Shown in pieces: positions 469 through 19,787 of a stretch of 64,000 nt of DNA. The stretch spans positions 1 through 64,000 of the forward strand of contig JAUYEG010000163.1 of the NCBI GenBank assembly GCA_030691505.1, given 5' to 3'. The translations under genes and the position numbers were made by a program. The notes below the pieces were generated by a model. It saw nothing but the letters and a program-made list of their open reading frames with translations. It did not search any database and was not told the DNA's origin. The stretch's first letter is position 1; each line of letters starts with the position of its first letter. The stretch comes from Bacillota bacterium (GTDB lineage: Bacteria > Bacillota > Sulfobacillia > JAUYEG01).

Positions 469-2073
469 CTAGGGCCCTAGAAGTAGCTTGGCCGAAAGCT
501 CGGACATATGCAGCGGCCAGTTGGCCGGCGAGAGCGAGAAAACCACGCAGCCCAGGGCCAGAACGACAATCGGGACAAGCATGGCCGGCGGCGCCTCGGC
601 AACGGAGCTCAGAAGGCGGCTCAAGCCCGCCGGCGCCGGCGAGGGTTCGGTTTGATCCCCCGCGACAAAACCGGCCACGATACCCGTGCTCACGCCGACA
701 TGCCTGGCATGAGCGTCGGGAGCGGCGTACCCTGCCGCCCGATCACCGGCGCGGGTGAAGAAAGCCGTGATCACAATGGGAAGGTAATACACCGCGTTCA
801 TCAGGCTGCTGACGATCAGCAGCACGGCGTAGAAAGGCTTGCCCGCCTCAAAAGCTCCGAGCGACAGCTCCCATTTGCTGATGAAGCCGTTGAGCGGAGG
901 GATGCCGATCATCGTCAGTGCGGCTACGGTGAAGCACGCCATCGTCACGGGCATACGTTGCCCCAGACCGCCGAACTCGCGGATGTCGCGCTTGCCCGTT
1001 TTCTTGATGATCGCCCCGGCGCAAAGGAACAAGCAGCTCTTCATGATTGCGTGCGCAAAGATATGGAAGATGTCGCCCGTCAGGGCCCTCTCCGAAAGCA
1101 GTGACATGCCAAGCAGGATGTAACCCATCTGCCCGATGCTGGAGTAGGCGAGCCGCCTCTTGATGTCCATCTGGGTGATGGCGACCGCGCTGCCGAGGAT
1201 GATGGTCACCGCGGCGGCGAACAACATCCCGGATGCCCAGCCCACAGCCCTGAAGAACCCGACCCCGTAGATGTTGTAGATGACCCTCAGCAGCCCGTAG
1301 GCGCCGGTCTTGAGCATGATCCCCGACAGGAGCGCGCTGGCGGGCGACGGCGCCACCGGGTGGGCGTCCGAAAGCCACACGTGCAGAGGGACCATACCGG
1401 CTTTCATGCCGAACGCGGCGACGAAGGCGATGAACGTGAACAGCGACAGCGGCGAAGACTGGGTGATGACTCCGATCCGGTCGAGGCTGACCGTGCCGCC
1501 CAACTCGAACGTCGCCACCAGGCCGAAGAAAAACGCCAGGCTTCCGGCGATGGTCATGAACAGGTACTTGAGGCCGGCGCGCATCGCAGCCGGGGTCTCC
1601 TCATGCACCACGAGCACGTAGGCGGGCAGCGACATGAACTCGAAGAAAAGAAACAGCGTAAAGAGGTCGCCGGCGAGGAAGGTCCCCACCGACCCCGACA
1701 GCGTCAGTACGAAGAACGAGTAGTAGCGCGTTTGGCCGTGCTCGTCCTTCATGTACTCGAGCGAGTAGATGGTCACCAGGAACCACACCGACGAGGACAG
1801 GAGCGCCAGGAAGAAGCTGAGGGTGTCCACGCGGAACGAAATACCCAGCGGGGGCAGGAAACCGCCGAACGAAGTCACGAGCGTGTTGCCCGCGGACACC
1901 GCGGGGTACATCGCCGCGGCCAGCACCGTCGTTCCCGCGGACGCAAACAGGGCAACCATGTTGCGGAGCCGGGCGGAGCTTCGCCCTGCAAAATAGACAA
2001 GGCCGGTGCACGCCATGGGAAACAGCGCCACGGCGGCCGGCAGCCACGAATAGACGATACGTCCTGGCATCAT
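469..2073 (-). CDS. Proton-conducting antiporter-like subunit (HyfF/NuoM/MnhD family)
   Basis: About 534 residues with some 14 membrane helices. It shows the hallmarks of the Proton_antipo_M family: a glutamate in FEFMSLPAYV, a lysine and histidines in GMKAGMVPLHVWLSDAHP, and another lysine in HAIMKSCLFLCAG, residues known in this family to form the ion path across the membrane. The start at ATG 2073 (or the next codon, 2070) is preceded by AGGAGG; an earlier ATG pair at 2097 lacks a ribosome site. It follows the mnhD-like gene after about 200 bases that hold a good promoter, so it may be expressed separately. It probably belongs to a hydrogenase or complex I-like machine continuing beyond base 1. 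Confidence 0.88.
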   Translation of the reverse strand: MMPGRIVYSWLPAAVALFPMACTGLVYFAGRSSARLRNMVALFASAGTTVLAAAMYPAVSAGNTLVTSFGGFLPPLGISFRVDTLSFFLALLSSSVWFLVTIYSLEYMKDEHGQTRYYSFFVLTLSGSVGTFLAGDLFTLFLFFEFMSLPAYVLVVHEETPAAMRAGLKYLFMTIAGSLAFFFGLVATFELGGTVSLDRIGVITQSSPLSLFTFIAFVAAFGMKAGMVPLHVWLSDAHPVAPSPASALLSGIMLKTGAYGLLRVIYNIYGVGFFRAVGWASGMLFAAAVTIILGSAVAITQMDIKRRLAYSSIGQMGYILLGMSLLSERALTGDIFHIFAHAIMKSCLFLCAGAIIKKTGKRDIREFGGLGQRMPVTMACFTVAALTMIGIPPLNGFISKWELSLGAFEAGKPFYAVLLIVSSLMNAVYYLPIVITAFFTRAGDRAAGYAAPDAHARHVGVSTGIVAGFVAGDQTEPSPAPAGLSRLLSSVAEAPPAMLVPIVVLALGCVVFSLSPANWPLHMSELSAKLLLGP

Positions 2074-2243
2074 TGCCCCTCCTGTGCCGGACATCATCCG
2101 GCAGCAACGACAACGAACTGTCTCGCTATCGCGACCTACGCAGGCTCGAAGCGAAAGTTCCTTGTTTCACAATTAGGACATCGGCGGCGGAGCAGCCGGT
2201 TTGTCTCGTCGGCGCAGTTTACTTAATGAGACGTTCACGGACC

Positions 2244-2273
2244 ATGATAGACCTGCTCGATCAAAGCTGTCAA
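2244..2273 (-). promoter_or_regulatory. Sigma-A-type promoter inside the antiporter cluster
   Basis: On the minus strand TTGACA (2273-2268), an 18-base spacer and TATCAT (2249-2244) give 11 of 12 consensus bases. It lies between the stop of the MnhD-like gene (2280) and the next gene (start 2073), leaving a leader of about 165 bases. It could give separate control to the last two antiporter-like genes and whatever follows them. Confidence 0.6.
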
Positions 2274-2279
2274 ACCCGT

Positions 2280-3758
2280 TTAGCGCAGCGCAAAGAAGCT
2301 CTTGGCGACCTCGAGCATGTGCTGGAGCGGGAACCGGGGCAGAAAACCGGTGAGCACGCACACGGCGGCCAGGATGACTATCGGCGCCAACTCGGCCGGC
2401 GGGCCCTCACGTCCACGGGGATGCCCGGGGTCAGGGCCAAAGTAGGCCGAGATGACAAACGGCAGATAGTACGCCCCGCTGAGCAGGCTGCTGGCAACGA
2501 CGAGCACGGCGTACAGCGGGCGGCCGAGGTCAAGTGCGCCGAGTGCGACGTACCATTTGCTGATAAAGCCGTTGGTTCCGGGAACGCCGATCATGGCCAG
2601 CGCCCCGATCGTAAAGGCCGCGGTCGTGAGGGGCATGGACCGGGCGATCCCGCTGAGCCCGGCCAAGTCCCGCTTGCCGGTGCGAGCGATCATCGCCCCC
2701 GCCGCAAGGAACAGGCATACCTTCATGACCGCGTGGTTGAAAACGTGCAGCAGGGCGCCTGCGACGGCATTCTCGCTGCGGAGCGACAGCCCAAAGAAGA
2801 TGTAGCCCATCTGAGCGATGGTCGAGTAGGCCAGCAGACGTTTGATGTCACGCTGCGCAATGGCCACGATCGACCCGAAGAACATCGCCCCCGCCGAGAA
2901 CCAGAACATGACGTAGGGCGCAGGCGAGCGCCAGAGCAGGTCTGGGCCCCATACCTGATAGCCGATGCGCGCCAGGGCCACAACGTAGACCTTGACCACC
3001 AGGCCGGAGAGCAGCGCGCTGGACGCCGACGGCGCCGCGCTGTGGGCATCCGGCAGCCACACGTGCAGCGGGAAGAGCGCGGCCTTAAGCCCGAACCCGA
3101 CCAGGTACAGCGCCAGAGCACCCATGGTGACCCTGGGGAATGAGGCGGCTGCCGCCGGCAGAGCCCGGCTGATTGCGTCCATGTCCAGGTAGCCAGTGAC
3201 GGAGTAGAGCATCGCGGTGGCCAGGAGCACGGCGCCGGAGCCCACGGCGGATAGAAGCAGGTACTTGAAACTGGCCTCGAGGGCGGCGGGGCGGCTGTCC
3301 ACGGAGATAATCCCGCATGCGGCGATCGAGCAGATCTCGGCCATCACGAACAAGTTGAAAAGGTCCTTGGCTATGACCAGGCCGGACATGCCCCCGAGCA
3401 GAGTGAGACACAGCGGCCAGTACCAGCGTTCCGCCTGCCGACCCAGTTCCGCCGGCTCGTGCGACTGCGCGAACAGGAGAATCAGCGTGGCCCCGCAGCC
3501 AAGCAGCGTAAGCACCACGGCTCCGAGAATATCGACCCGTACCTCGATGCCGAGCGGGGCCGGCCAGCCGCCCGTTGCGTATGTGAGCGGTCCGTTACGG
3601 GTGACCCTGCTCAGAAGCGACAGTGCGATGAACGCATGGATCGCGGCGGTACCGACAGCGCCCCATCGAGCGAACCCAATGCGGCGGCTTCCCATCCATC
3701 CGCACACAAAGGCGCCGAGGAACGGCAGGGCGATGACGAGAGCGGGACCGTGCGCCAC
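2280..3758 (-). CDS. mnhD: Mrp/Mbh antiporter subunit D (MnhD/MbhH-like)
   Basis: 492-residue polytopic membrane protein of the Proton_antipo_M family, the main ion-translocating subunit of Mrp antiporters. Visible motifs are FVMAEICSIAACG (helix 5 glutamate), GLKAALFPLHVWLPDAHSAAPS and NHAVMKVCLFLAAGA (conserved lysines and histidines). The open frame extends far upstream, but the family N-terminus and an AAGGAG 9 bases away point to GTG at 3758, two bases after the mnhC stop. It is the eighth gene of a minus-strand run E-F-G-MbhD-MbhE-B-C-D, the order known from archaeal membrane-bound hydrogenases and Mrp-linked complexes. Confidence 0.9.
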   Translation of the reverse strand: MAHGPALVIALPFLGAFVCGWMGSRRIGFARWGAVGTAAIHAFIALSLLSRVTRNGPLTYATGGWPAPLGIEVRVDILGAVVLTLLGCGATLILLFAQSHEPAELGRQAERWYWPLCLTLLGGMSGLVIAKDLFNLFVMAEICSIAACGIISVDSRPAALEASFKYLLLSAVGSGAVLLATAMLYSVTGYLDMDAISRALPAAAASFPRVTMGALALYLVGFGLKAALFPLHVWLPDAHSAAPSASSALLSGLVVKVYVVALARIGYQVWGPDLLWRSPAPYVMFWFSAGAMFFGSIVAIAQRDIKRLLAYSTIAQMGYIFFGLSLRSENAVAGALLHVFNHAVMKVCLFLAAGAMIARTGKRDLAGLSGIARSMPLTTAAFTIGALAMIGVPGTNGFISKWYVALGALDLGRPLYAVLVVASSLLSGAYYLPFVISAYFGPDPGHPRGREGPPAELAPIVILAAVCVLTGFLPRFPLQHMLEVAKSFFALR

Positions 3759-3760
3759 GT

Positions 3761-4123
3761 CTAGCCGCTCCTTGTGCGGCGGACGATTTCGTCCGCATCG
3801 AGGGTTCCCAGGTTCTCGTGGATCTTGATCGCCAGCGCGAGCGCGAACGCCGTGGTGCTGACGGCAATGACGATTCCTGTGAGGATCAATGCCGAGGGAA
3901 GCGGGTTGACGAAACCCGCCGCCGTGCCGGCGGCTCCGATCGGCGGCCTGCCCCCCCGCACATAGCCGAGCGACACGACAAACAAGAACACCGCGGTGTC
4001 CATGATGTTCATGCCGATGATCTTCTTGATGAGGTTGCCGTGGGTCAGCATGGTGTACAGGCCCACAGCGAAGAGGACCATCGCGCCCAGGAAATTGAGG
4101 TGGCCGAGGAGCTGCTGGCTCAC
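3761..4123 (-). CDS. mnhC: Mrp/Mbh antiporter subunit C (NuoK-like)
   Basis: 120 residues with three membrane helices, resembling NuoK. The middle helix carries IIGMNIMDTAVFL and the last ALILTGIVIAVSTTAFALAL, both typical of MnhC. It starts with GTG at 4123, overlapping the mnhB stop in a GTGA arrangement, which implies coupled translation. It forms part of the ion channel of the antiporter module next to MnhD. Confidence 0.9.
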   Translation of the reverse strand: MSQQLLGHLNFLGAMVLFAVGLYTMLTHGNLIKKIIGMNIMDTAVFLFVVSLGYVRGGRPPIGAAGTAAGFVNPLPSALILTGIVIAVSTTAFALALAIKIHENLGTLDADEIVRRTRSG

Positions 4124-4569
4124 GGCTCATCCACCTCGCCTGATGCGCCGCCGCCGCTCCAGATCCGGGCGACGAGGCCAAAAACCGTTGCCGCGACCTT
4201 GACGCCCACCGCAGCCCCCAGAAGCCACACCGCACCCGAGGAAAAGAGCTTGCCCGGCGTCCCGGACGGAAAGCCCGCCCCCAGGTTGGTCAGAAAAAGG
4301 CTCCCCCGGAAGACCGCCACCAGCCCGATGAGGACATACCCGGAACTGCCCAGGGTGTCGAGGTTGCCCAGCGAGTTTTCGTTGAAGACCTTTTCGGCAT
4401 GGTGGAATCCCCATGAGAGGGCCGCAAGAATGAGGCCTGCCGCGATGATCGTGCCGCCGGCGAACCCCCCGCCGGGCGAAAGATGCCCATGCGTGATGAC
4501 GTAGGCGCCGTAGACTGTGATCAGCGGCAGCAGATACCCCGCGATGGTCGACAGGATGAGGTCATGCAC
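4120..4569 (-). CDS. mnhB: Mrp/Mbh antiporter subunit B (MnhB/MbhF-like)
   Basis: 149-residue membrane protein with the MnhB signature HGHLSPGGGFAGGTIIAAG in its first half and four predicted helices. The longest frame starts 28 codons earlier, but those residues are arginine- and proline-rich and unlike the family; GTG at 4569 follows GGAGGG at 6 bases and overlaps the end of the preceding mbhE-like gene by 8 bases. Confidence 0.9.
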   Translation of the reverse strand: MHDLILSTIAGYLLPLITVYGAYVITHGHLSPGGGFAGGTIIAAGLILAALSWGFHHAEKVFNENSLGNLDTLGSSGYVLIGLVAVFRGSLFLTNLGAGFPSGTPGKLFSSGAVWLLGAAVGVKVAATVFGLVARIWSGGGASGEVDEP

Positions 4570-4852
4570 CTCGATCCCTCCTCCGGTGGCTGAGCACCGA
4601 GGCAGTGGCGGCGGCCGCCGTGAACAACACGGTGGCCTCGCCAAGGGTGTCAAAGGCCCGGTAGTCGAACACCACGGCGGTCACGGAGTTGACCGCTCCC
4701 GTATCCTTAACGGTGTCAAGCACGTACCGCTCAAAAACCTCGTTGCGGTTTGGGGCGTCGGGAGCGCCGAACTCCGGCAGAGCGTAGGCAATGACGCCCA
4801 TCATCCCGCTGACGAGGACGACTGTAAAGATGACCAGAGCCGCGCGGCTCAC
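4562..4852 (-). CDS. mbhE: Mbh-type subunit E (equivalent to part of the MnhA C-terminus)
   Basis: 96 residues with one N-terminal membrane helix, a loop and a second helix. The motif VVFDYRAFDTLGE is characteristic of the hydrogenase 4/Mrp MbhE family, which in Mrp antiporters is fused into MnhA. It starts with GTG overlapping the stop of the upstream gene. A separate MbhD plus MbhE pair, rather than one long MnhA, makes this module closer to Mbh-type complexes than to a free-standing Mrp antiporter. Confidence 0.85.
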   Translation of the reverse strand: MSRAALVIFTVVLVSGMMGVIAYALPEFGAPDAPNRNEVFERYVLDTVKDTGAVNSVTAVVFDYRAFDTLGEATVLFTAAAATASVLSHRRRDRGA

Positions 4853-5091
4853 TCCTCGCGCCTTCTAGTCCGGCTGACGGCGCCGATGAGCAGCAGGGTC
4901 GTGACCCCCGCGCCGACGGCCGCCTCGGTTATCGCCACGTCAGGAGCGCCCAGCATCTGCCAGTTTATGGCCATCAACAGGCTGTAAGAGGCGAAAATGA
5001 CGACCGCACCGAGGAGGTCACGTGTCCGTTCGACCGCGAGGCCGCAGGATACCAGCAACACCACGAGCAGGGCGCTGAAGACTAGGTGCAA
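4849..5091 (-). CDS. mbhD: Mbh-type subunit D (DUF4040, equivalent to part of MnhA)
   Basis: 80 residues with three short helices and the DUF4040 motif QMLGAPDVAITEAAVGAG, known from MbhD and the C-terminal part of MnhA. The start is a TTG at 5091 behind AAAGGAGAGG and overlaps the end of mnhG by 10 bases. It ends in a basic tail, RTRRREE, at the cytoplasmic side. Confidence 0.85.
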   Translation of the reverse strand: MHLVFSALLVVLLVSCGLAVERTRDLLGAVVIFASYSLLMAINWQMLGAPDVAITEAAVGAGVTTLLLIGAVSRTRRREE

Positions 5092-5459
5092 GGACCTGAC
5101 CTCTCCTTTCCAGGAACGGCGTCAGGCCCGGCGGAAGACGCGACGCCGCCGTCCGACAGCCGCAGCGTGCCGGGAAGGGCCCGCACACCGGACCGGTACG
5201 CGGCCCTGGCCATGCAGTGCGCGGCAGTCGGGCTGGTGATCCAGATGAAGACCACCAGGAAGATCAGTTTGACGACGGTCGTCGGGTCGCTGGTCACAAC
5301 CGCCAGGCCCAGCAGCCAGAGCCCGGCCCCCAGGCTGTCGCTCTTGGCGGCCACGTGCATGCGTGTATAAACGTCAGGCATCCGCAGGATGCCGATCGTC
5401 CCCGCCAGCAGAAAGAACGTGCCGGCCACCAGCAACAGGGCCGCGACCAGTTCGCGCAT
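5082..5459 (-). CDS. mnhG: Mrp/Mbh antiporter subunit G
   Basis: About 125 residues. The N-terminal 90 carry the MnhG pattern: a helix, then GILRMPDVYTRMHVAAKSDSLG, then two helices ending in WITSPTAAHCMARAAY. The remaining 35 residues are a polar tail not needed by the family. Two adjacent ATGs are possible; the second (5459) has the better spacing of 6 bases from GGAGG. Confidence 0.9.
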   Translation of the reverse strand: MRELVAALLLVAGTFFLLAGTIGILRMPDVYTRMHVAAKSDSLGAGLWLLGLAVVTSDPTTVVKLIFLVVFIWITSPTAAHCMARAAYRSGVRALPGTLRLSDGGVASSAGPDAVPGKERSGPCT

Positions 5460-5488
5460 CATACACCTCCGTCAAGCACACCGGCCTT

Positions 5489-5758
5489 CTAGGTGGACGG
5501 CCCGCCCCGTTCGAGGTAGGTCGCCACGCCGATTGTGGCCAGGAAGCCTATCAGGCCGTACACCAGCGCGACATCAACGAAGAAAGGCTGCCTGGCCGCG
5601 ACCGAAAGACCGGCGATAAGAACCAGGGCCTTGGTGCCGATGACGTTGATGGCGACCATCCGGTCGGCCACGGTCGGGCCGACGGCGGCGCGGGCGAGGC
5701 ACAGTGCGATCATGATTAGAAGAAAGGCCAACAGAGACCACAGCACGGGATCAAGCAT
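5489..5758 (-). CDS. mnhF: Mrp/Mbh antiporter subunit F
   Basis: 89 residues, three helices, with the MnhF-type segment RAAVGPTVADRMVAINVIGTK. The ATG at 5758 overlaps the last codons of mnhE and follows GGAGGGG at about 7 bases; a longer frame from 5776 is less likely. The gene lies between mnhE and mnhG, in the usual E-F-G order. Confidence 0.9.
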   Translation of the reverse strand: MLDPVLWSLLAFLLIMIALCLARAAVGPTVADRMVAINVIGTKALVLIAGLSVAARQPFFVDVALVYGLIGFLATIGVATYLERGGPST

Positions 5759-6290
5759 CGTCGGCCCCTCCCCCAAACGCTTTTTCGAGGCCGCGTACCC
5801 GCCACTCAGCAGCCCATTCAGGCAGCGTCGCAGCCGCGGACCGGGTCAAAGTATGAACCAGGAAGCCGTCCCTGTCCATCTCGACGGTCAAAGTCCCCGG
5901 AGTCAGGGTAATCGAGTTGGCGAGAAGCACACGGCCCCAATCAGAGCTAAGATGCGGCCGGTACGCCATGAAAACCGGACTCACCGGGAGCTTGGGGTCA
6001 AGGACGATCAGCGCGACCTGGATGTTGGCCTTGACGACCTCGACCATCAGGAAGGCCAAGTAGGCAAGCACCCTGAAAGGGGCGCCCAGTCTGGCAGCCA
6101 TCGGTCGTCCCAATGGTCTGGTCTCGTGGGAAGGTCCCGGAGCGACACGCCAGCGCACAACCAGCGCCACGAGTACGACGGCGGCGCCGAGCACGAGATG
6201 CTGGAGGTCCCACGCTCCACCGAGTGCGAACCAGAACAGAAGAAGCCCGAGAAACGAGGCCGCGTGGCGACCGGGGAATACCCTCAACAT
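5751..6290 (-). CDS. mnhE: Mrp/Mbh antiporter subunit E
   Basis: 179 residues: two N-terminal helices and a soluble C-terminal half with the family motif LLANSITLTPGTLTVEMD. This is the first gene of the minus-strand antiporter module and is divergent from the formate dehydrogenase cluster that starts 400 bases away. MnhE is needed for antiporter assembly in studied systems, although its exact job is not known. Confidence 0.9.
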   Translation of the reverse strand: MLRVFPGRHAASFLGLLLFWFALGGAWDLQHLVLGAAVVLVALVVRWRVAPGPSHETRPLGRPMAARLGAPFRVLAYLAFLMVEVVKANIQVALIVLDPKLPVSPVFMAYRPHLSSDWGRVLLANSITLTPGTLTVEMDRDGFLVHTLTRSAAATLPEWAAEWRVRGLEKAFGGGADDA

Positions 6291-6690: not shown

Positions 6691-7569
6691 ATGCAGGAGC
6701 CAGACCGCGGACATGAGGTCTTCGGCGCGCCTGTGCTCGGCGCGTCCCTACAGCGCTACCGTCGCGAGGGGCGGGCGGCACCGGAGTTGCTGAGCCTCGC
6801 CGCGGCGCTGGCGGCGCTGCAGGTTGAGCTGCATGCGGAGCTGACCGATGCTCCACCGCCGCAGGATGCCTCCCCTACTCCTCCGGCGGACTGGGCTGCC
6901 GACGCTCTCCGGCGTACCGCTGACGTGGTCGCCGCCCATTCGCCTCAGAGCGTGCCGGCGCTGGCCGGGTTTGCCGCCGGCGCCGCCAAGCTCGAGACAG
7001 GATTGCTGGCAGCGGCGGCCCGCGGCGAGGCCCCGGCGGTGGCCGAGGTGGCGGGCGTCACCGGCGCAGCGCCGGCGGTCGCAGTCTATGTCCTGCGGGC
7101 GGCGCTGCAGCCCCACCTTGCCTGGCGCTTCGGAGCCGGCTCCGCCTGCGCCGGGGATCTGCCATTCCCTGTCCGGCAGTACTGTCCGGCATGCGGCGGG
7201 CGCCCGCTGATGGGCAAACACACGGAGCCGGACGGGCACCGGTTTCTGCGCTGTACCCTGTGCGGCCACGAATGGGCCTACCCTCGCATGGCTTGCCCTG
7301 CCTGTGGTGAGTCCGAGCAGGCCAAGCTGGAGTCGTTTTTCGTCACAGGCGACGAGGGGCACCGGGCGTACCTGTGCGCGACATGCAAGCGATACACCAA
7401 GGTTTCTGACGAAAGGCTTCTGGGGGGCCGGGTTTACCTGCCCCTGGAGGATATGGTGACCCTGCACCTGGATGACCTGGCCCGCGAACGGGGCTACACC
7501 CCGGTCAGCGAGGATGGGCCCGACGATCCGGAACAGGGCAGGAAGGTATCTCAGTGGGGAGAGAGGTGA
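6691..7569 (+). CDS. fdhE: Formate dehydrogenase accessory protein FdhE
   Basis: 292 residues. The N-terminal half is helical and variable; the C-terminal half has four CxxC knuckles (CPACGG near residue 166, CTLCGHEW near 190, MACPACGE near 203, CATCKRY near 229), the rubredoxin-like metal sites of the FdhE family. FdhE assists assembly of Tat-exported, respiratory formate dehydrogenases. It is the first gene of the cluster and ends 7 bases before the catalytic subunit, which fits this role. Confidence 0.9.
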   Translation: MQEPDRGHEVFGAPVLGASLQRYRREGRAAPELLSLAAALAALQVELHAELTDAPPPQDASPTPPADWAADALRRTADVVAAHSPQSVPALAGFAAGAAKLETGLLAAAARGEAPAVAEVAGVTGAAPAVAVYVLRAALQPHLAWRFGAGSACAGDLPFPVRQYCPACGGRPLMGKHTEPDGHRFLRCTLCGHEWAYPRMACPACGESEQAKLESFFVTGDEGHRAYLCATCKRYTKVSDERLLGGRVYLPLEDMVTLHLDDLARERGYTPVSEDGPDDPEQGRKVSQWGER

Positions 7570-7576
7570 TGAGGGA

Positions 7577-10500
7577 GTGAAGCTTTCCCGTAGGTCTTTC
7601 CTCAAGCTATCCGGGATGACCGTTACGGCGGCAGCCTTGACCGGGCTCGGTTTCGAGGTCCGGCAGGCCGCGGCGGCGCCGCTGCGCACCGCCAATGCCC
7701 AGGAGACGACAACCATATGCCCGTACTGCGGCGTCGGTTGCGGCATTGTCTGCCATTCGGTCAACGGGAAAGTGGTCAACTGCGAGGGCGATCCTGACCA
7801 CCCGATTAACCTCGGGTCACTCTGCAGCAAGGGATCTGCCCTGTATCAGTTGACCAGCAGCAACGAGCGGCGCCTCAGCAAGGTGAAGTACCGCGCGCCG
7901 GGCTCGGATCGCTGGGAGGAAAAGACCTGGGATTGGGCGATCACCGAGATCGCCAAGCGTATCCAGAGGACGCGCGACGATTCCTTCGTGACGACCGACG
8001 CATCCGGTGTGACGGTCAACCGGGCCGAGGCCCTCGCATGCATGGGCGGGGCCGCGCTCGACAACGAGGAGTGCTACGCGTACAGCAAATTCGCACGGGC
8101 GCTTGGTGTTGTCTGGCTGGACCACCAGGCGCGTATATGACACTCTGCCACGGTCGCCGGTCTGGCGCCATCATTCGGCAGAGGGGTAATGACCAATCAC
8201 TGGGTGGACCTCAGGAACACCGACTGCGCCCTGATCCTGGGCGCCAATGCGGCCGAGAACCACCCGATGTCGTTTAAGTGGCTGCTCCGCGCAAGGGAGA
8301 CTCGCGGGGCCAAGATCATCAGCGTAGACCCGCGGTTTACCCGCACCTCGGCGGTCTCTGACCTGTACGCACCGCTCCGCCCAGGGACGGACATCGCCTT
8401 CGTGGGCGGGATGATCAATTACGCGCTTGAGAATCGCCTGTATCACGAGGAGTATGTGCGGGAGTATACCAACGCGTCCTACATCATCAGCAGCGCCTAT
8501 TCTTATGAAGACGGGCTGTTTAGTGGATATGACGCGGCCAAGCGGGCCTACGACAAGAACCAGTGGGCCTACGAAATGGACGCGGCCGGCATCCCGCGGC
8601 GGGATAAGACGCTCAGCAATCCGCGTTGCGTTTTCCAGCTGCTCAAGAAGCACTTTGCCCGCTACGATGCGGAAACTGTCTCGAGCATAACGGGTTGCCC
8701 AAAGGACAAGTTCCTCGCGGTCGCGTCAGCCTTCGGTACGACCGGCGCAGTCGACAAAGCCGGAACGATCCTGTACGCCATGGGTACCACGCAGCATACG
8801 GTCGGCACCCAGAATGTGCGGGCATTCGCGGTCCTCCAGCTTTTGCTCGGCAACATCGGCAGACCGGGCGGGGGCATCCAGGCCATGCGCGGCGAGTCCA
8901 ACGTTCAGGGCTCGACCGACGCTGCGCTGCTGTTCCATCTATTGCCAGGATACCTCAAGGTTCCGGCGTCGGACATGCCGGACCTTGCCACGTATCTTGA
9001 CAAGACCACTCCGAAGACAGCCGACCCGGACAGCGTCAACTACTGGAAAAACACACCCAAGTTCACTGTCAGCCTGCTGAAGGCATGGTTCGGCGAGGCC
9101 GCGACGGCCGAGAACGAATTCGGCTACCAGTGGCTACCCAAGGTGCATGCGGGCAGGAACCATTCGCACATCGCCATTTTCGAGGCGATGTATGAAGGCC
9201 AGATCAAGGGCCTGATCCTGATGGGCCAGAACCCGGCCGTGGGCGGCCCCAACGCCAACAAGGAGCGCAAGGCGCTGGCCAGGCTCGACTGGATGGTCGC
9301 CGTGGACATATTCGAAACCGACACGTCGGTGTTCTGGAAGGGCCCGGGGGTCGACCCCAAGACCATCCAGACCGAGGTGTTTCTGCTGCCGGCCGCGGCG
9401 TCGACGGAGAAGGAAGGCAGCGTCTCCAACAGCGCCCGCTGGATGCAGTGGCGGTACGTGGCCGCGCCCCCACCGGGCGAGGCCAAGCCGGACCTGGACA
9501 TCATCGATATGCTGTACAAGAAGGTCAAGGGCCTGTACGCAGGCTCCACCGATCCCAAGGACCAGGGTTTGCTCAGCCTCACCTGGGACTACGGGTCTCA
9601 CCCTGACCCGCACCGGGTGGCCAAGGAAATGAACGGATACGACCTGGTTACCGGCAAGTTGCTGGTCAACTTCACAAAGCTGATGGACGACGGCGCCACC
9701 TCGTGCGGCAACTGGGTCTACTCCGGCTGCTACACCGGGGACGGCAACATGTCGGCGCGGCGGGACGCCTCCGACCCGAGCGGCCTTGGGATCACGCCCA
9801 AGTGGGCCTGGGCATGGCCCGTCAACCGGCGCACGGTGTACAACCGCTGCTCCGCGGACCCGAAGGGGCAGCCATGGGATCCAGAGCGAGCACCGTTCCG
9901 CTGGGATGCGGCCACTGGCGCCTGGGTATCCTTCGACGTACCCGACTTCGTGGCCACCGTTCCGCCGGAGAAGTCCGCAGCCTCGCCTTTCATCATGCGT
10001 GTCGAGGGTGTGGGTTGCCTGTTCTCGCGTGAGCTAAACGAAGGTCCTTTCCCCGAGCACTACGAGCCGTGGGAGACCCCCGTGGCCAACGGGATGTCTT
10101 CCCAGAATATCAACCCGGCCGTCAAGTTCTGGGGCGAGGCGGACAATGCCAAGGGCGACAAGGCGCAGTATCCGCTCATCGGCACGACGTACCGCGTCAC
10201 CGAGCACTGGCAGGCGGGCTCCATGACGCGCAACTGCCCGTGGCTCGCGGAGGCGATGCCGGAGATGTTCGTTGAGCTGAGCCCGCAACTGGCGCAGCAA
10301 AAGGGCATCTCCAGCGGCGAGACCGTCAAGGTCGTCGGCGCCCGCGGCGAAGTGCTCGCCAAGGCCTGCGTGACCTCCAGGTTTGCCCCGTTTAACGTCG
10401 AGGGTCAGACCTGTCACGTCATCGGCCTTCCGTGGCATTTCGGGTACAACGGGTACGTCACCGGCGGCCCGGACAAGAAGCGCAGCTACGCGGCAAACCA

Positions 10501-10582
10501 ACTCACGGCGCACATCGGTGACGCGAACACCACGATCCCTGAGTACAAGGTGTTCCTGTGCGATCTAAGGAAGGTGACCTAG
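7577..10582 (+). CDS. fdnG: Formate dehydrogenase catalytic subunit, selenocysteine-containing, Tat-exported
   Basis: About 1001 residues, read through an in-frame TGA at 8138-8140. The frame continues without interruption, and the TGA sits exactly where FdnG/FdhF enzymes carry selenocysteine: HQARI-Sec-HSATVAGLAPSFGRG, residue 188 (Sec196 in E. coli FdnG). Start GTG 7577 follows GGTGATGAGGGA. The N-terminus has a twin-arginine signal (SRRSFLKLSG), then the [4Fe-4S] site CPYCGVGC near residue 48 and the molybdopterin-guanine dinucleotide domains. It oxidises formate to CO2 (reversible in some enzymes), probably outside the membrane. The next genes are the iron-sulfur subunit, rnfC and rnfD; no cytochrome b partner follows. 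Expression requires SelA/B/C/D, not encoded here. Confidence 0.95.
8138..8183 (+). promoter_or_regulatory. Selenocysteine codon and SECIS hairpin
   Basis: The UGA (8138-8140) is followed by a hairpin: lower stem CTCTGCC (8143-8149) with GGCAGAG (8177-8183), and an upper mini-helix around CGCC (8155-8158) and GGCG (8164-8167) closed by the loop GGTCT. The loop is the same as the SelB-binding loop in the E. coli fdhF SECIS, and the distance from the UGA fits bacterial SECIS elements. Confidence 0.9.
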
Positions 10583-10583
10583 A

Positions 10584-11393
10584 ATGGCCAAGGCGATCCT
10601 CGTTGACACCACCAAGTGCACAGCGTGCCGGGCCTGCCAGGTTGCCTGCAAGCAGTGGAACCAGTTGCCCGCGACGGTCACCGGGTTCGGGGGGACCTAC
10701 GAGAACCCGCCTGACTTCCGCGGATCGTATACCCGCGTGCTGTTCAGCGAGTCGGTCAAGGACGGCGAGGTGCGCTGGAACTTCGCCAAGACGCAGTGCA
10801 TGCACTGCACAGACGCCGCATGCGCGATGGTCTGCCCCACAGGGGCCATCCGCAAGAGCGAGTTCGGCACGACGGTGATTGACGCCGCAAAGTGCATCGG
10901 CTGCAACTACTGCATCGCCAACTGCACTTTCGGGGTCATCTACTTCGACCGCGCGCTCAACCGGGCACGCAAGTGCGACATGTGCTATGACCGGATGAGC
11001 AACGGGAAGACCCCCGCCTGCGCCAAGGCCTGCCTGACGGGCTGCCTGCAGTTTGGGGAGCGGAGCGAAATACTGGCCAAGGCTCAGGCCGCCGTCGCGG
11101 CGGCCAAGAACCGCGGGCTGGCCGGAGCTCAGGTATACGGCCAGACCGAGGTCGGCGGCCTCGGCTGGATCTACGTGCTCAAGGATGCGCCGGCGGCCTA
11201 CCGGCTCCCGGCCGCTCCCGAGCCGCCCGTGACGGCCAGGTTCTGGCAAGCGCTCTTCCAGCCCGCGCGGATCGTGGCCGGGCTGGCAATCCTGTTCGGC
11301 CTGTGGAGCAACCGCAAGCACTCGGCCGACCTCGCCCCCGCCCCGGAGGGCACTGCCACAGGCGCGGGCAGAGCAATCAGTGCTGGCAAGTAA
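10584..11393 (+). CDS. fdhB: Formate dehydrogenase iron-sulfur (beta) subunit, membrane-anchored
   Basis: 269 residues. Sixteen cysteines in four ferredoxin-like groups (CTACRACQVAC, CMHCTDAACAMVC, CIGCNYC with CIANC, and CDMC with CAKACLTGC) should bind four [4Fe-4S] clusters, as in FdnH. A single hydrophobic segment near residues 220-238 (ARIVAGLAILFGLW) with a basic stop (SNRKH) resembles the FdnH anchor that contacts the cytochrome b subunit, but no such subunit is encoded here. It should take electrons from the catalytic subunit and pass them to a membrane partner; the adjacent rnfD is the obvious candidate. It starts one base after the catalytic subunit ends. Confidence 0.92.
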   Translation: MAKAILVDTTKCTACRACQVACKQWNQLPATVTGFGGTYENPPDFRGSYTRVLFSESVKDGEVRWNFAKTQCMHCTDAACAMVCPTGAIRKSEFGTTVIDAAKCIGCNYCIANCTFGVIYFDRALNRARKCDMCYDRMSNGKTPACAKACLTGCLQFGERSEILAKAQAAVAAAKNRGLAGAQVYGQTEVGGLGWIYVLKDAPAAYRLPAAPEPPVTARFWQALFQPARIVAGLAILFGLWSNRKHSADLAPAPEGTATGAGRAISAGK

Positions 11394-11420
11394 TCTCGTC
11401 ATGCGAACGGAGGGAGCGAA

Positions 11421-12755
11421 GTGAGCGTCAAGACCTTCACTCGTGGCGGCGTCCATCCGCCCGAGCACAAGGAGCCCACCGCCGGGTCGCCTATTCGCGA
11501 GATTCCGCCAGCACCGGAGATGGTTGTCCCGCTGTCACAGCACACCGGGGCTCCATGCGAGGCGACTGTGGCGGTTGGCGACCGGGTTATGGCGGGTCAG
11601 AAGATCGGAGACTCGGAGGCCTTTATCTCCGCGCCGGTGCACTCACCCGTGTCCGGCACGGTCAAGGCCATTGAAATGCGTCGGGTTTTCACGGGGGCGA
11701 TGGTACGCTGCGTCGTCATCGCCCCGGATGAGCACCAGGAACAGGCCGCCCAGACTGAGCGGCGCGACTGGCGGGCTCTTGCGCCCGACGAGATCAGGAG
11801 CATAGTTCGTCAAGCGGGCATCGTCGGGCTGGGTGGAGCGGCTTTCCCGGCGAGCGTCAAGATCGCGCCGCCCAAAGACAAGCCAATTGACAGCGTGATT
11901 ATCAACGGGTGCGAGTGCGAGCCGTTCCTGACCTGCGACCAGGCCTTGATGCTTCTCCGGCCGGACGACCTGATCGAGGCGACCCGGCTGCTGATCAAGG
12001 TTGTGGGCGCCAGGCGCGGCTACATCGGCATCGAGCTCAACAAGCCGGACGCCATTGAGCTTCTGGCAAGCAAGCTCAAGGAGGACCCGGAGATCTGCGT
12101 CGTACGTTGTGAGGTCAAGTACCCGGAGGGCGCGGAGAAGCAACTGATCAAGGCCGTTTTGGACCGCGAGGTGCCTCCCGGCAAGCTTCCGAGTGAGGTC
12201 GGGGCCCTGGTCCACAACGTTGGAACGGCGCTGGCGATCCTCGACGCGGTGGCCCAGGGAACGACCCTGACCAGGCGCGTGGTGACTGTAACCGGAGCTG
12301 TCGCCCGGCCGGGCAACCTGGAGGTCCGGGTCGGCACCCCGGTAAGCCACCTTATCGAGCAATGCGGCGGCTTTGCGGGTCAGCCCGGCAAGGTCATCTT
12401 GGGTGGCCCGATGACAGGCTGGGCGATCGAGGACCTCGGCGTTCCGGTGCAAAAAGGCACCTCGGGCGTTGTCGTCCTAACCCGCGAGTACATGGACGCC
12501 CACCCCACGCTTGCGTGCGTGCGCTGCGGCAAGTGCGTCGAGGTCTGTCCGATGGGCCTGATGCCCAACATGATCGGTATCTACGCCGAGCGCGGACGGT
12601 ACGACGATGCGGAGAAATGGAACGCCATGGACTGCTTCGAGTGCGGCGCCTGCGCGTATGTCTGCCCGTCCAAGCGGCCGCTGGTCGACTGCGTGAGGAA
12701 GAGCAAGCAGGCGATCAACGAGAAGCATCGCCGGCAGAGGGAGGCAAAATCATGA
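11421..12755 (+). CDS. rnfC: RnfC-like NADH-binding electron-transfer subunit
   Basis: 444 residues, full length for RnfC. In order: an N-terminal barrel-sandwich domain, a nucleotide/FMN-binding domain with GLGGAAFP near residue 136 and KYPEGAEKQL near 235, an SLBB region, then two [4Fe-4S] motifs (CVRCGKCVEVCP near 365 and CFECGACAYVCP near 403). In Rnf complexes RnfC sits on the cytoplasmic side and exchanges electrons with NAD(H). The start is GTG 11421 behind GGAGGGAG. Neither rnfB, G, E nor A follows; only rnfD does, overlapping by ATGA, so C and D are made together and with the formate dehydrogenase. Confidence 0.92.
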   Translation: MSVKTFTRGGVHPPEHKEPTAGSPIREIPPAPEMVVPLSQHTGAPCEATVAVGDRVMAGQKIGDSEAFISAPVHSPVSGTVKAIEMRRVFTGAMVRCVVIAPDEHQEQAAQTERRDWRALAPDEIRSIVRQAGIVGLGGAAFPASVKIAPPKDKPIDSVIINGCECEPFLTCDQALMLLRPDDLIEATRLLIKVVGARRGYIGIELNKPDAIELLASKLKEDPEICVVRCEVKYPEGAEKQLIKAVLDREVPPGKLPSEVGALVHNVGTALAILDAVAQGTTLTRRVVTVTGAVARPGNLEVRVGTPVSHLIEQCGGFAGQPGKVILGGPMTGWAIEDLGVPVQKGTSGVVVLTREYMDAHPTLACVRCGKCVEVCPMGLMPNMIGIYAERGRYDDAEKWNAMDCFECGACAYVCPSKRPLVDCVRKSKQAINEKHRRQREAKS

Positions 12756-13699
12756 TCGGCCGCAATCTGGTTGTCACGCCGCCCCCGCACCTGAAGCAGC
12801 GGGATGCCGTGGCCCATGCAATGCGGGACGTGGCCCTAGCCCTGGTGCCGGTGACTCTGGTGGCGTTTTACTTCTTCCGTCTTAACGCGGTGATCATGTG
12901 GGTTCTCTGCGTGGGCGCCGCTGTGTTGACGGAGATCGTCGTCCGGCCGATGCTGGGCCAGAAACCTCAGATAGGCAACATGAGCGCCGTCGTCACCGGC
13001 TGGCTGCTCGCGCTGTGCTTCTCGCCGACCACCGCCTGGTGGACGGCGGTAATCGGCGCGATCCTGGCCGTCGGCGTGGCCAAGGAACTAATGGGCGGAC
13101 TCGGCTGGAACTGGTTTAACCCGGCGCTGTTCGGCCGGGTCGTACCGGTCGTGCTCGCCCCGCTCTTTTCCTGGATCGGACCGGTCCTGAGCTCGACAAG
13201 GTTCCGGTTCGCGATGGCCGACGTGATGAGCCAGGCGACTCCGCTGGCCATGCTCAAGGGCCGCGATCTTGCCGGGGCGCCCACTCCGGTCGACCTGTTG
13301 ACCGCATATCCGGGCGGGGCTCTCGGCGAGGTGTCGGCTCTGGCGCTGATCGCCGGCGGGCTGTACCTGATGTTGCGCAAGCACATCAGCTGGCGGATCC
13401 CGGCCGGCATGATCGCAACCGTGTTCGTGCTGACGCTGGTCCTGGGGCGGTACCCCGTACACCAGGTGCTGTCCGGAGGACTGCTGCTGGCGGCATTCTT
13501 CATGGCGACAGACTGGGTCACGGCCCCGGTTACGGGCAACGGCCGGCTGATCTTCGGGATCGCCATAGGCGTGCTCGTGGTGCTGTTCCGTGTGTTCGGT
13601 GCTCCGCCTGAGGGCGTCGGGTTCTCGGTTCTCCTGATGAACCCAACCGCACACTGGATCGACCGCATGACCAGGCCGAAGCTGTTCGGCCAGAAGTAA
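12752..13699 (+). CDS. rnfD: RnfD-like flavin-carrying membrane subunit
   Basis: 315 residues with about nine or ten helices. The ATG at 12752 overlaps the rnfC stop; the open frame runs further upstream but only inside rnfC. Conserved RnfD/NqrB segments are GGLGWNWFNPALFGRV near residue 112, MSQATPLAML near 156, and LLMNPTAHWIDR near the end. In RnfD/NqrB an FMN is covalently bound to a threonine in an (S/D)GAT motif; here the motif reads SQAT, with the threonine kept and glycine replaced. RnfD is expected to carry electrons across the membrane to RnfC; here its donor would be FdhAB instead of RnfG. Confidence 0.9.
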   Translation: MIGRNLVVTPPPHLKQRDAVAHAMRDVALALVPVTLVAFYFFRLNAVIMWVLCVGAAVLTEIVVRPMLGQKPQIGNMSAVVTGWLLALCFSPTTAWWTAVIGAILAVGVAKELMGGLGWNWFNPALFGRVVPVVLAPLFSWIGPVLSSTRFRFAMADVMSQATPLAMLKGRDLAGAPTPVDLLTAYPGGALGEVSALALIAGGLYLMLRKHISWRIPAGMIATVFVLTLVLGRYPVHQVLSGGLLLAAFFMATDWVTAPVTGNGRLIFGIAIGVLVVLFRVFGAPPEGVGFSVLLMNPTAHWIDRMTRPKLFGQK

Positions 13700-13775: not shown

Positions 13776-13821
13776 AAGCCGCAGGGGCCAGCATGAGGGT
13801 AAGGCCGGCCCCTGCGGCTTT
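13776..13821 (+). terminator. Strong hairpin after rnfD
   Basis: A perfect 14-base inverted repeat (13776-13789 and 13807-13820) with a 17-base loop ends in TTT. It lies 76 bases after the rnfD stop and before tatA, so it probably ends the fdh-rnf transcript. Confidence 0.75.
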
Positions 13822-13885: not shown

Positions 13886-14110
13886 ATGCGCATTGGCGTG
13901 TGGGAGATCGTGGTCGTGCTGCTGGTCGCGTTGATCCTGTTTGGGCCCAATCGTCTGCCGGAGATGGGCAAAGCGCTGGGCAAGGCGATCAGAGAGTTCA
14001 GGCGGGCCACCTCTGACCTCGGCAGGGAACTCGAGCAGGCCCGCGAGGAACTCGAACGCCCGGCGGAGGAGCAGACGCACGAACAACCCACGCAGCAGAA
14101 ACCGGAGTAG
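13886..14110 (+). CDS. tatA: Sec-independent translocase subunit TatA
   Basis: 74 residues: one N-terminal helix (EIVVVLLVALILFGPNRLPEM), the FGP hinge, an amphipathic helix (LGKAIREFRRATSDLG) and a charged glutamate-rich tail. TatA forms the transport pore of the twin-arginine pathway. It sits next to tatC and just after the operon whose catalytic subunit carries a twin-arginine signal. A TATACT at 13854 may be its -10 box, but I see no good -35. Confidence 0.93.
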   Translation: MRIGVWEIVVVLLVALILFGPNRLPEMGKALGKAIREFRRATSDLGRELEQAREELERPAEEQTHEQPTQQKPE

Positions 14111-14113: not shown

Positions 14114-14839
14114 GTGAGCCGGGCGGCTAATCCTGAGCAGTACCAGCTATCCCTGGGCCAACACCTGCTGGAACTGCGGGCGCGGTTCCTGCGGGCGGCG
14201 TTGGCCATGGCCGTGACGACGGCCGCTTCGCTCGGCCTTTCGCGCCGTTTGCTGGAGCTGCTGCTCCGCCCCGTGCCGGAGATCTTCTTTTTTGCCCCAG
14301 GGGAGGCGTTTGCGGCCCACCTCAGGGTTGCCTTCCTGATCGGAATACCCCTGGCCTGGCCGGTCGTGCTCTACCAGATCTTCGCCTTCATCGCGCCGGG
14401 GCTATATCCGGCTGAAAGGCGGGGCCTCGCAATACTGCTGCCTGTCGGCACGGTGCTGTTTATCCTCGGGCTCGCGTTTGGATATCTGGTGATGATTCCC
14501 GTGGTTTTGGTGTGGCTGCGCGGGTTCGCGACAGGGGGCGTCACCGCCGCGATCTCGCTCAGCACGTATGCCGGTTTCGTTACACGCGCGCTGCTGCCGT
14601 TCGGGATCACCTTTCAGCTCCCGCTTGTCGTCGGCGTATTGAGCCGGATCGGCATGGTCACGGCGGGCTCCATGGCCGGAGCCCGCCGGTGGGTGTACCT
14701 GGGCATAGCCGTCGCCGCGGCGCTGCTTACGCCGCCCGACGTAGTATCGCAGATCCTCATGGCGTTGCCGATGGTCGTGCTTTATGAACTGTCAATCGTC
14801 ATTGCTCGCCTCATAGCCCCGCGCACCGGCGACGCCTAG
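14114..14839 (+). CDS. tatC: Sec-independent translocase subunit TatC
   Basis: 241 residues, six helices. It carries the signal-recognition motif HLLELRARF near the N-terminus and FIAPGLYPAERRG after the second helix, both diagnostic of TatC. Start GTG 14114 lies 3 bases after tatA. It recognises twin-arginine signals such as that of the formate dehydrogenase upstream. Confidence 0.94.
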   Translation: MSRAANPEQYQLSLGQHLLELRARFLRAALAMAVTTAASLGLSRRLLELLLRPVPEIFFFAPGEAFAAHLRVAFLIGIPLAWPVVLYQIFAFIAPGLYPAERRGLAILLPVGTVLFILGLAFGYLVMIPVVLVWLRGFATGGVTAAISLSTYAGFVTRALLPFGITFQLPLVVGVLSRIGMVTAGSMAGARRWVYLGIAVAAALLTPPDVVSQILMALPMVVLYELSIVIARLIAPRTGDA

Positions 14840-17787: not shown

Positions 17788-19338
17788 CTAGAGCGGGATG
17801 TTGCCGTGCTTTTTGGCTGGTCTCGACTCACGCTTGCTCCTCAGACTGCGGAGAACCTCAATCAGCACCGGACGTGAGTCCTCCGGGGCGATGACAGCCT
17901 CAATGTACCCCCGCGCTGCGGCAGGGTACGGGGTCGCGAACCGGGCCCGGTATTCGGCTTCCTTGTCCCGGCGGGTCTGCACGGGATCCCCGGCCTGCTC
18001 GATATCGCGACGGAAGATTATGTTGGCGGCGCCCTCGGGCCCCATCACGGCGATCTCAGCGGTCGGCCACGCGGCGGAGAAATCCGCTCCGAGCGACCGG
18101 CTGCACATTGCGAGGTAGGCCCCACCATACGCCTTGCGCAACACGACGGTGAGCTTGGGCACCGTGGCTTCCGAATAGGCAAACAGCAGCTTGGCGCCGT
18201 GACGAATGATCCCGCCGTACTCCTGGGCTGTGCCGGGCAGGTAGCCCGGGGTGTCGACGAAGGTCAGCAGCGGGATGTTGAACGAGTCGCAGAAGCGGAC
18301 AAACCGGGCCGCCTTGTCCGACGCATTGATGTCGATGCACCCCGCGAGCACCTTGGGCTGATTCGCCACAACGCCGATGACTTGGCCGTCGAGCCGCGCG
18401 AAGCCGGTGACCATGTTGGCGGCGTACCACTGGTGGGTTTCGAACAGATCGCCATGGTCCAGGATGGGGCGTATCACGTCCCGCACGTCATAGGGACGGT
18501 TGGGGTCCGCGGGCACTGCGGCTGCCAGGGCGGGGTCGCGCCTCTCGGGGTCATCGGTCGGCTCCGCCTCGGGTGGATCTTCGAGATTGTTGGCGGGCAG
18601 AAAGGACAGGAGCTTCTTTACCTGGGCCAGGCATTCAGCCTCGCCGGCGGCGTGGAAGTGGGCCACGCCGCTGGTCTGGTTATGCGTCGGCGACCCGCCG
18701 AGGTCCTCAAGGCTGACATCCTCGCCCGTTACGGCCTTGATAACCTGCGGGCCGGTGATGAACATCTGGCTTGTCTTATCCACCATGAAGACGAAGTCCG
18801 TCAGCGCCGGCGAGTACACCGCGCCGCCGGCGCAGGGCCCGGCGATTACCGAGATCTGCGGGATAACCCCGGATGAGAGCGTGTTGCGGAAGAAGATGCG
18901 CCCGTAGCCGTCAAGAGCGTCGATTCCCTCCTGGATGCGGGCGCCGCCGGAGTCGTTGATGCCGACGAGGGGGGCACCCACCTTTGCGGCCATCTCCATG
19001 ACCTTGACGATCTTGCTGGCGTGCGCCTCTCCGAGGCTGCCGCCTATCACCGTGAAATCCTGGGCAAACGCGTACACGGGCCGTCCGTCGACGCGGCCGA
19101 AACCGGTGACCACGCCCTCGCCCGGCGCCTCAGTCCGGTCCATCCCGAACTCGATGCACCGGTGGCGTGCAAACATGTCCAGCTCGGTGAAGCTATCCTG
19201 GTCAAACAGCTGTGCCAGGCGCTCGCGCGCGGTGAGCTTGCCCGCACGGTGCTGGCGCTCCGTGCGTTCAGGGCCGCCGCCGCCGATTACCTTGGCCTTC
19301 TCGGCCGCCAGCGCGGACAGCTTTTCCTCAATGCTCAT
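17788..19338 (-). CDS. mmdA: Methylmalonyl-CoA/propionyl-CoA carboxyltransferase subunit
   Basis: 516 residues with the two crotonase-like halves of acyl-CoA carboxyltransferases. Visible are [12 protein letters not shown] and [12 protein letters not shown] in the N half, [16 protein letters not shown], and [14 protein letters not shown] with [12 protein letters not shown] in the C half. It transfers CO2 between methylmalonyl-CoA and biotin on the adjacent carrier. No biotin carboxylase and no sodium-pumping MmdB lies nearby, so it cannot be decided whether the complex is a decarboxylase, a carboxylase or a transcarboxylase. It overlaps the epimerase gene. Confidence 0.92.
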
Positions 19339-19748
19339 GATCTGGGTTCCCCTCTTTGGCTCAATTCGATTAGCACTCCGTGCGTGGACTTCGGGTGCAG
19401 GAAAGCGATCAGCTTGCCGCCGGCGCCGGTCCGCGGCGTCTCGTCGATCAGCCTGAGCCCCGCGGCCCGGGCGGCGGCGAGCGCGGCCGGCAGGTCGGGC
19501 ACCGACAGGCTGATGTGGTGTATACCCTCGCCCCGGGCGGCCAGGAACTTGCCAACCGGTCCGTCCGGATCGGTCGGCTCAAGCAGCTCGATGTGCGCCG
19601 GACCCAGCGCAAGCATCGCGACCTTCACGCCCTGCTCCGGCACCGTCTCAATGGCGTCGAGCGAAAGGCCGAGCGCCTCCCGGTAGGCAACAAGGGCGGA
19701 CTCGATCTCGCGCACGGCTATGCCGATGTGGTCAAGCTCCGTGTTCAT
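19335..19748 (-). CDS. mce: Methylmalonyl-CoA epimerase
   Basis: 137 residues of the vicinal oxygen chelate fold with metal ligands in DHIGIAV, GIHHISL and VLIELSQ. It interconverts the S and R forms of methylmalonyl-CoA between mutase and carboxyltransferase. ATG 19748 matches the family N-terminus; an ATG at 19763 lies too close to the AGGAGG but cannot be excluded. Its end overlaps mmdA. Confidence 0.92.
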   Translation of the reverse strand: MNTELDHIGIAVREIESALVAYREALGLSLDAIETVPEQGVKVAMLALGPAHIELLEPTDPDGPVGKFLAARGEGIHHISLSVPDLPAALAAARAAGLRLIDETPRTGAGGKLIAFLHPKSTHGVLIELSQRGEPRS

Positions 19749-19787
19749 GCCCCTGACGCCCATCTCCTCCTTACCCCCCGTCTCCTT

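Follow-up and report, generated by a model that had tools for sequence, protein, structure and literature searches.

A formate dehydrogenase operon with RnfC and RnfD as its only Rnf genes: a probable membrane wire to the NADH pool

Introduction

How syntrophic and acetogenic anaerobes living near the thermodynamic limit couple nicotinamide adenine dinucleotide (NADH) to the exchange of formate or H2 with their partners is an open question. A locus in a Bacillota bacterium bears on it. In a 64,000-nucleotide stretch of DNA, hereafter the window (lineage Sulfobacillia; NCBI GenBank assembly GCA_030691505.1, contig JAUYEG010000163.1, positions 1 to 64,000), the genes of an exported formate dehydrogenase are followed by rnfC and rnfD, in one operon with the order fdhE–fdnG–fdhB–rnfC–rnfD. 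What are two of the six subunits of the Rnf complex doing beside a formate dehydrogenase?

A first-pass annotation of this DNA suggested that they carry electrons across the membrane between formate and NAD. Its description of the operon, with five genes in this order, a selenocysteine (Sec) codon and a twin-arginine translocation (Tat) signal in fdnG, a four-cluster fdhB and short gaps or overlaps between genes, is borne out by coordinates and profile scores (Table 1). So is the absence of a cytochrome b and of rnfA, rnfB, rnfE and rnfG from the operon; the gaps leave room for no other gene.

Our analysis makes it likely that the operon encodes a membrane-bound, pump-free, reversible and electrogenic formate:NAD+ oxidoreductase that works through an RnfC-RnfD arm. 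This reading builds on gene content, conservation, a shared clade, retained cofactor motifs and the absence of other membrane subunits. From these we infer that FdnG, FdhB, RnfD and RnfC form a complex with the electron path, direction and energetics described below, that FdhB contacts RnfD, and that the enzyme has formate:NAD+ activity. The phenomenon is also wider than first proposed: the same RnfC-RnfD arm serves a second class of molybdenum enzyme.

Results

The arrangement recurs in dozens of genomes

In a survey of 300 genomes of the phylum, any RnfD relative is present in 163. The closest relatives of the window RnfD sit in six other genomes, all without rnfA, rnfB, rnfE or rnfG alongside, and two of these loci (L039 and L041) have the full fdhE-fdnG-fdhB set together with rnfC and rnfD. 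Scanning GTDB contigs with eight RnfD proteins of this module type gave 79 loci. The non-redundant loci with module-type RnfD number 74, and RnfC is adjacent in 70. None of the 74 contains rnfA, rnfB or rnfE, and a single one (L132) has an RnfG-like gene.

The partner is FdnG in 42 loci, a PhsA-like enzyme without FdnG in 10 and an iron-sulfur (Fe-S) subunit alone in 13; the remaining 9 show no partner, and in most of these the contig is short or the match lies at its end. The FdnG-FdhB-RnfC-RnfD arrangement is thus far beyond chance, and a lack of conservation in relatives, which the first-pass annotation had named as an outcome that would count against it, is not what we find. The holders are mostly Bacillota, joined by metagenome-assembled genomes (MAGs) that bear the labels Actinomycetota, Dehalococcoidia and Desulfovibrio. 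Among those with names are Anoxynatronum buryatiense, whose two modules are of the formate dehydrogenase type (L069) and the PhsA type (L110), and MAGs under the labels Symbiobacterium, Dethiobacter, Tindallia and Candidatus Solincola. Misbinning may be behind some of these labels. One holder is a complete genome (G052).

The details of the operon are conserved as well. In the window, fdnG and fdhB are 1 bp apart, fdhB and rnfC 27 bp, and rnfC and rnfD overlap by 4 bp. The genes are near-contiguous, therefore no further subunit is hidden in the operon. In the relatives these gaps are short and constant (mostly 0-3 bp, about 20 bp and about 30 bp, respectively). The Tat motif, RRSFL in the window FdnG, is found in nearly every full-length FdnG, and most relatives have a Sec enzyme, with Cys in its place in L041/L091 and L074. 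FdhB scores 190.7 bits against TIGR01582, under the cut-off of 334.7; its cluster cysteines are invariant across 20 relatives. A C-terminal helix is predicted at residues 216-250, and every scored full-length FdhB has such a hydrophobic helix. Modelled as a single chain, FdhB gives a structure of no more than fair quality (predicted local distance difference test, pLDDT, 67).

Cytochrome b of family PF01292 is absent from 30 of the 34 module genomes tested and from 7/7 of high quality. The flavin transferase ApbE is present in 56/57 module genomes.

RnfC-RnfD-FdhB operons without a neighbouring FdnG occur in L040, L042/L098, L065, L071, L083 and L088; their catalytic subunit may be of another kind or encoded at another place.

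RnfD and RnfC of the module form their own clades

In the RnfD tree, 75 module-type rows and 22 canonical RnfD proteins, including the solved ones of A. woodii, C. tetanomorphum and A. vinelandii, lie on opposite sides of a branch with full support (Shimodaira-Hasegawa-like approximate likelihood-ratio test, SH-aLRT, 100). The RnfC tree has the same split, with a support of 97. Within the RnfD tree the partner type switches at least five times, therefore the RnfC-RnfD arm outlives its partners.

The residues that hold the cofactors are retained. T163 of the window RnfD (covalent flavin mononucleotide, FMN) and N123 and D254 (riboflavin) align with T156, N123 and D249 of the A. woodii protein (9eri_D), and the model of the window RnfD matches 9eri_D and 7zc6_D with TM scores of 0.81-0.82. 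Over the module RnfD set, the riboflavin Asn and Asp are found in 75/75 and the FMN Thr in 72/75, with Ser in the other three. In published Rnf structures the covalent FMN of RnfD lies near the outer face and the riboflavin near the inner face, followed by the RnfC clusters (PMC11889175, PMC9588780); this matches the earlier statement that in Rnf models RnfD has a flavin near the outer face and passes electrons on towards RnfC. The window RnfC keeps its NADH/FMN motifs and both 4Fe-4S motifs, as do the module RnfC proteins other than the hydrogenase fusions described below. No signal peptide is seen in it, hence we place it in the cytoplasm. Its C-terminal end, the RnfB-binding part in A. woodii, looks alike in module and canonical RnfC.

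A difference is found on the outside. The RnfD segment from NPA to ATPL, from which the extracellular linker continues, is typically 36 residues long in the module, compared with 27 in canonical proteins, and that linker is known to cover the FMN and to hold RnfG weakly (PMC9588780). A longer linker would fit a changed outer partner, though it does not in itself prove that FdhB docks there.

Standalone RnfD-like genes of a further family (f25; L147-L149) were considered and set aside as unrelated to the module; RnfC and other Rnf genes are not nearby. One of them, L147, adjoins genes of an ATP-binding cassette transporter.

The genome has a separate, complete Rnf

The first-pass annotation had asked whether rnfA, rnfB, rnfG and rnfE exist elsewhere in this genome. 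They do, in the assembly of 2.88 Mb (95.9% complete), but in a complete rnfCDGEAB-apbE operon on another contig (C67) that has its own C and D. Since this operon has both, the window RnfC and RnfD are dedicated paralogues and do not stem from an Rnf whose genes were split apart; an Rnf left incomplete by an assembly gap is likewise rejected. An FdnI-type cytochrome b encoded elsewhere was the other case thought to speak against the proposal, and we reject it for PF01292, which is not found anywhere in the genome.

The RnfG of the complete Rnf (L003:8029-9099, plus strand) has 356 amino acids and looks like two tandem FMN-binding domains. Three more formate-dehydrogenase-like proteins of about 900 amino acids with NuoG-like N-terminal regions, probably cytoplasmic, are encoded on contigs C113, C19 and C95 of this genome (G000; L154-L156), and the gene on C19 has an in-frame TGA.

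A second molybdenum enzyme and a hydrogenase fusion

Ten module loci adjoin a molybdenum enzyme of the polysulfide/thiosulfate-reductase type (PhsA/PsrA) in place of FdnG; for one of these partners the best solved relative is PsrA (2vpw_A, 4.9e-118). In two operons an [FeFe] hydrogenase precedes RnfC in one fused protein: L045:6995-10015 (minus strand), in a one-contig genome, and L131:4553-7588 (plus strand), where the hydrogenase part is NCBIfam group A6. Both operons also encode a Tat-exported PsrA-like enzyme and an RnfD. The fused RnfC part has lost the glycine-rich and ECEP NADH/FMN motifs and has kept both 4Fe-4S motifs. On the simplest reading of these motifs, electrons would run from H2 inside through the hydrogenase to the RnfC clusters, RnfD, the Fe-S protein and the reductase outside, with NADH bypassed. 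A fusion that retains only the clusters supports RnfC-RnfD as a wire with two ends.

The two-part wire looks like a general means, not described before, of connecting enzymes outside the cell to its NADH pool. On balance we favour the view that exported Mo/Fe-S oxidoreductases (formate dehydrogenase and the polysulfide/thiosulfate type of reductase) belong to a hitherto undescribed class of transmembrane redox enzyme, where a dedicated RnfD-RnfC pair connects them directly to cytoplasmic NADH, or to a fused [FeFe] hydrogenase, and no quinone, cytochrome or ion pump takes part; the arm would be interchangeable among exported molybdenum enzymes generally.

In a Dethiobacter MAG (L132:7884-10993) an RnfG-like FMN_bind protein is followed by RnfC and RnfD only; this protein is perhaps a third kind of outer partner.

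A proposed path for the electrons

In the proposed enzyme, FdnG would fold inside the cell with its partner FdhB, and the Tat system would export both, so that formate oxidation or CO2 reduction takes place at the outer face. From the four Fe-S clusters of FdhB, electrons would reach the covalently bound FMN of RnfD, cross the membrane to the RnfD riboflavin and continue through the two RnfC clusters and the RnfC FMN to cytoplasmic NAD+; the reverse would also be possible. RnfD would stand in for FdnI, and FdhB for RnfG.

The textbook potentials are about -430 mV for CO2/formate and about -320 mV for NAD. Two charges would be moved across the membrane per formate, near equilibrium: the span of about 110 mV with two electrons crossing roughly balances a membrane potential of that size, hence the reaction would be reversible. 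When formate is plentiful the wire would conserve energy, building proton motive force and NADH. When it is scarce, as in a syntrophic or acetogenic setting, membrane potential would be spent pushing NADH electrons onto CO2, and formate would be released outside. The path agrees with that described for Rnf, from the RnfG FMN by the RnfD FMN and riboflavin to the RnfC clusters, the RnfC FMN and NAD+ (PMC11889175, PMC12174285), and in one study RnfD of A. woodii was found to conduct electrons only, not Na+ (PMC11889175).

If this is correct, a pump-free, two-charge formate:NAD+ wire would directly answer the coupling question for many lineages that lack FdnI-type cytochromes and, to the extent tested, menaquinone, and exchange of formate or sulfur compounds with the outside becomes a direct, reversible user of membrane potential. 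The Rnf pump would then be modular, with an RnfD-RnfC half that works alone as a plug-in arm, which bears on the evolution of Rnf and Nqr. A use in engineering the conversion of CO2 to formate is also possible.

Weighing the alternatives

Several observations weigh against the proposed enzyme. Many of the module genomes are MAGs. The RnfD collection was gathered with motifs of its own clade, which favours a one-clade outcome, therefore the trees group the collected proteins into a single family and do not argue that other families are lacking. The RnfD loop 146-161, relevant to contact with FdhB, has low confidence in the single-chain model. Finally, RnfA/E is above the family cut-off elsewhere in 55/57 module genomes, typically in one complete Rnf. 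The idea that module genomes lack the other Rnf subunits is thereby rejected.

This last point is what favours an alternative Rnf, in which the module RnfC and RnfD join the RnfA, B, E and G of the genome and the formate dehydrogenase feeds or drains the pump as a formate-linked supercomplex: 55/57 compares with 163/300 phylum genomes that have any RnfD relative, and, given how conserved the Rnf cores are, their subunits could conceivably mix. We nevertheless consider it unlikely. The complete rnf operon owns a C and a D, and genomes mostly have as many RnfD genes as full Rnf operons and modules taken together, therefore the module is not filling in for a missing Rnf part. Module RnfC and RnfD fall in separate clades, and the outer RnfD linker differs just where RnfG docks. 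A Dehalococcoidia MAG (G344) has the module and no RnfA/E in view; it and G341, the other apparent exception, are MAGs that may be incomplete. The electrons of FdhB might also reach RnfD and then leave to a quinone or another carrier instead of NAD+, since the related NqrB uses quinone and has an AKE motif in common with the orphan RnfD in an alignment. This is very improbable: RnfC is adjacent in 70/74 loci with complete NADH/FMN and Fe-S motifs (two of the 70 being the fusions), and the futalosine pathway to menaquinone is absent in 33/34 genomes, the present one included, in a test that covered this route and not the classical men route. That the genes lie together by coincidence or for regulation only, with a formate dehydrogenase working without RnfC and RnfD, could be argued from the few loci where FdnG is not adjacent to RnfC-RnfD-FdhB; with a tight gene order kept across dozens of genomes and no gene for another membrane subunit, we give it hardly any credence.

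A different matter is the direction. The same formate:NAD+ machine may run mainly outward, with electrons from NADH or hydrogenase inside driving CO2 to formate outside as syntrophic electron disposal at the cost of membrane potential. This is compatible with the proposed enzyme, from which it differs only in net direction, and we see the chances as even. The acetyl-CoA synthase gene is present in 18/34 module genomes, including this one; downstream in the window are mmdA and the genes of methylmalonyl-CoA mutase and of 2-oxoacid:ferredoxin oxidoreductase. Together, acetyl-CoA synthase and genes for methylmalonyl-CoA and 2-oxoacid oxidation make formate exchange with partners plausible. Further, the PhsA/PsrA-type partners are reductases, the hydrogenase fusions imply electrons moving from inside to outside, and an instance in the literature comes from a syntrophic acetate oxidiser (PMC5080403). 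Against this, Sec-containing FdnG enzymes of the FDH-N family are usually formate oxidisers.

Comparison with known systems

The operon has the catalytic FdnG (Tat, Sec) and the four-cluster FdhB with C-terminal anchor helix in common with E. coli FDH-N (FdnGHI, PDB 1KQF). Unlike FDH-N, it has RnfD-RnfC and not the cytochrome b FdnI, so that presumably no quinone is involved and the acceptor should be NAD+. With the Rnf complexes of A. woodii (9ERI) and C. tetanomorphum (7ZC6) it has RnfD and RnfC in common, including their flavin, Fe-S and NADH-site motifs. It differs in having only C and D of the six subunits, in a separate clade and with a longer outer linker. RnfA, B, E and G are missing, hence the operon offers ferredoxin no entry point and lacks the ion pump that RnfA/E are proposed to form in A. 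woodii. In the second operon class, the partner enzyme and its Fe-S subunit resemble PsrA-PsrB of polysulfide reductase (PsrABC, PDB 2VPW), whereas no PsrC/NrfD-type gene is seen beside these operons, where RnfD-RnfC or HydA::RnfC is found instead.

The wire was at first put forward as new, which slightly overstated the case. RnfC and RnfD beside a formate dehydrogenase were noted by Frank et al. (2016), with RnfC and the dehydrogenase detected in the metaproteome (PMC5080403). Their organism, the syntrophic acetate oxidiser unFirm_1, very probably has the same arrangement; there it was called a truncated Rnf, and a mechanism, family or distribution was not proposed. Timmers et al. (2018) reported only RnfC, RnfD and two RnfG in another syntrophic acetate oxidiser (PMC6295475). 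Half-Nqr/Rnf wires with other partners have also been described (Meheust et al. 2021, PMC8238504; PMC10979944), and in these, too, half of the Nqr/Rnf path is a one-way membrane wire. In the systems of Meheust et al. NqrB/RnfD carries an NqrF-like NAD domain as a fusion, its RnfD flavinylation site has been lost and an FMN-binding protein serves as partner; the present module has RnfC as its NAD port, a retained FMN Thr and a Mo/Fe-S enzyme as outer partner. In Pfam the window RnfD matches PF03116 only, with no NqrF-like PF00175 fusion, the NAD domain being in the separate RnfC. An FMN-binding NqrC/RnfG-like partner is not found in the window operon, and among the related loci L132 alone has one. 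In the open-access literature, to which the search was confined (subscription papers not included), we found nothing on the RnfCD module as a family or on where it occurs, nothing on the Psr-type class or the hydrogenase fusion, and no account of the mechanism.

Gene organization and neighbouring genes

Table 1. Features of the fdh-rnfCD operon and its immediate surroundings (window coordinates).
Feature	Position	Strand	Evidence
fdhE, formate dehydrogenase accessory protein	6691..7569	+	Pfam FdhE_central above cut-off; TIGR01562 58 bits, under NCBIfam trusted cut-off
fdnG, exported catalytic molybdopterin subunit	7577..10582	+	TIGR01553 1314 bits (cut-off 814); Tat signal KLSRRSFLKL
Hairpin resembling a selenocysteine insertion sequence (SECIS), just 3' of the Sec codon	8143..8183	+	apical loop GGUCU; fold -19.4 kcal/mol, z -1.93
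fdhB, subunit with four [4Fe-4S] clusters and a C-terminal membrane-anchor helix	10584..11393	+	best PDB match E. coli FdnH 1kqf_B, 1.2e-52
rnfC paralogue, NAD(H)/FMN (Nuo51-like) domain, SLBB, two [4Fe-4S] motifs	11421..12755	+	TIGR01945 521 bits; Pfam; PDB 7zc6_C, 5.8e-129
rnfD paralogue, membrane flavoprotein	12752..13699	+	TIGR01946 272 bits; T163, N123, D254; fold match 9eri_D/7zc6_D
GC-rich, terminator-like hairpin closing the operon	13776..13820	+	-34.1 kcal/mol, z -2.65; perfect 12-base arms
tatA, Tat export	13886..14110	+	3' of hairpin, adjoins operon
tatC, Tat export	14114..14839	+	tat genes also flank L041/L091, L074, L106, L110, L120, L131

The fdnG gene has a GTG start, and its frame is open once the TGA at 8138-8140, within the active-site motif DHQARI-U-H of the family, is read as selenocysteine; SelB is encoded in the same genome. 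An Rfam scan of the window at the gathering threshold gave no matches, the SECIS-like hairpin included. As for the strong terminator that had been described after rnfD, folding does show a strong GC hairpin, but its T run is short and its loop long, and a simple terminator scan omits it for these reasons.

The tatA and tatC genes that follow are probably linked in function to the fdh-rnfCD operon. On its other side, a Mrp-type Na+/H+ antiporter cluster (469-6290, minus strand; D-like and E subunits named) is divergent from it. Downstream, the region 17788-25588 (minus strand) encodes mmdA, methylmalonyl-CoA mutase, glutamate dehydrogenase and 2-oxoacid:ferredoxin oxidoreductase, a context of propionate or amino-acid oxidation. 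Further along, a SpoIID/LytB-domain protein (29677-31074, minus strand) hints at a spore-forming ancestry.

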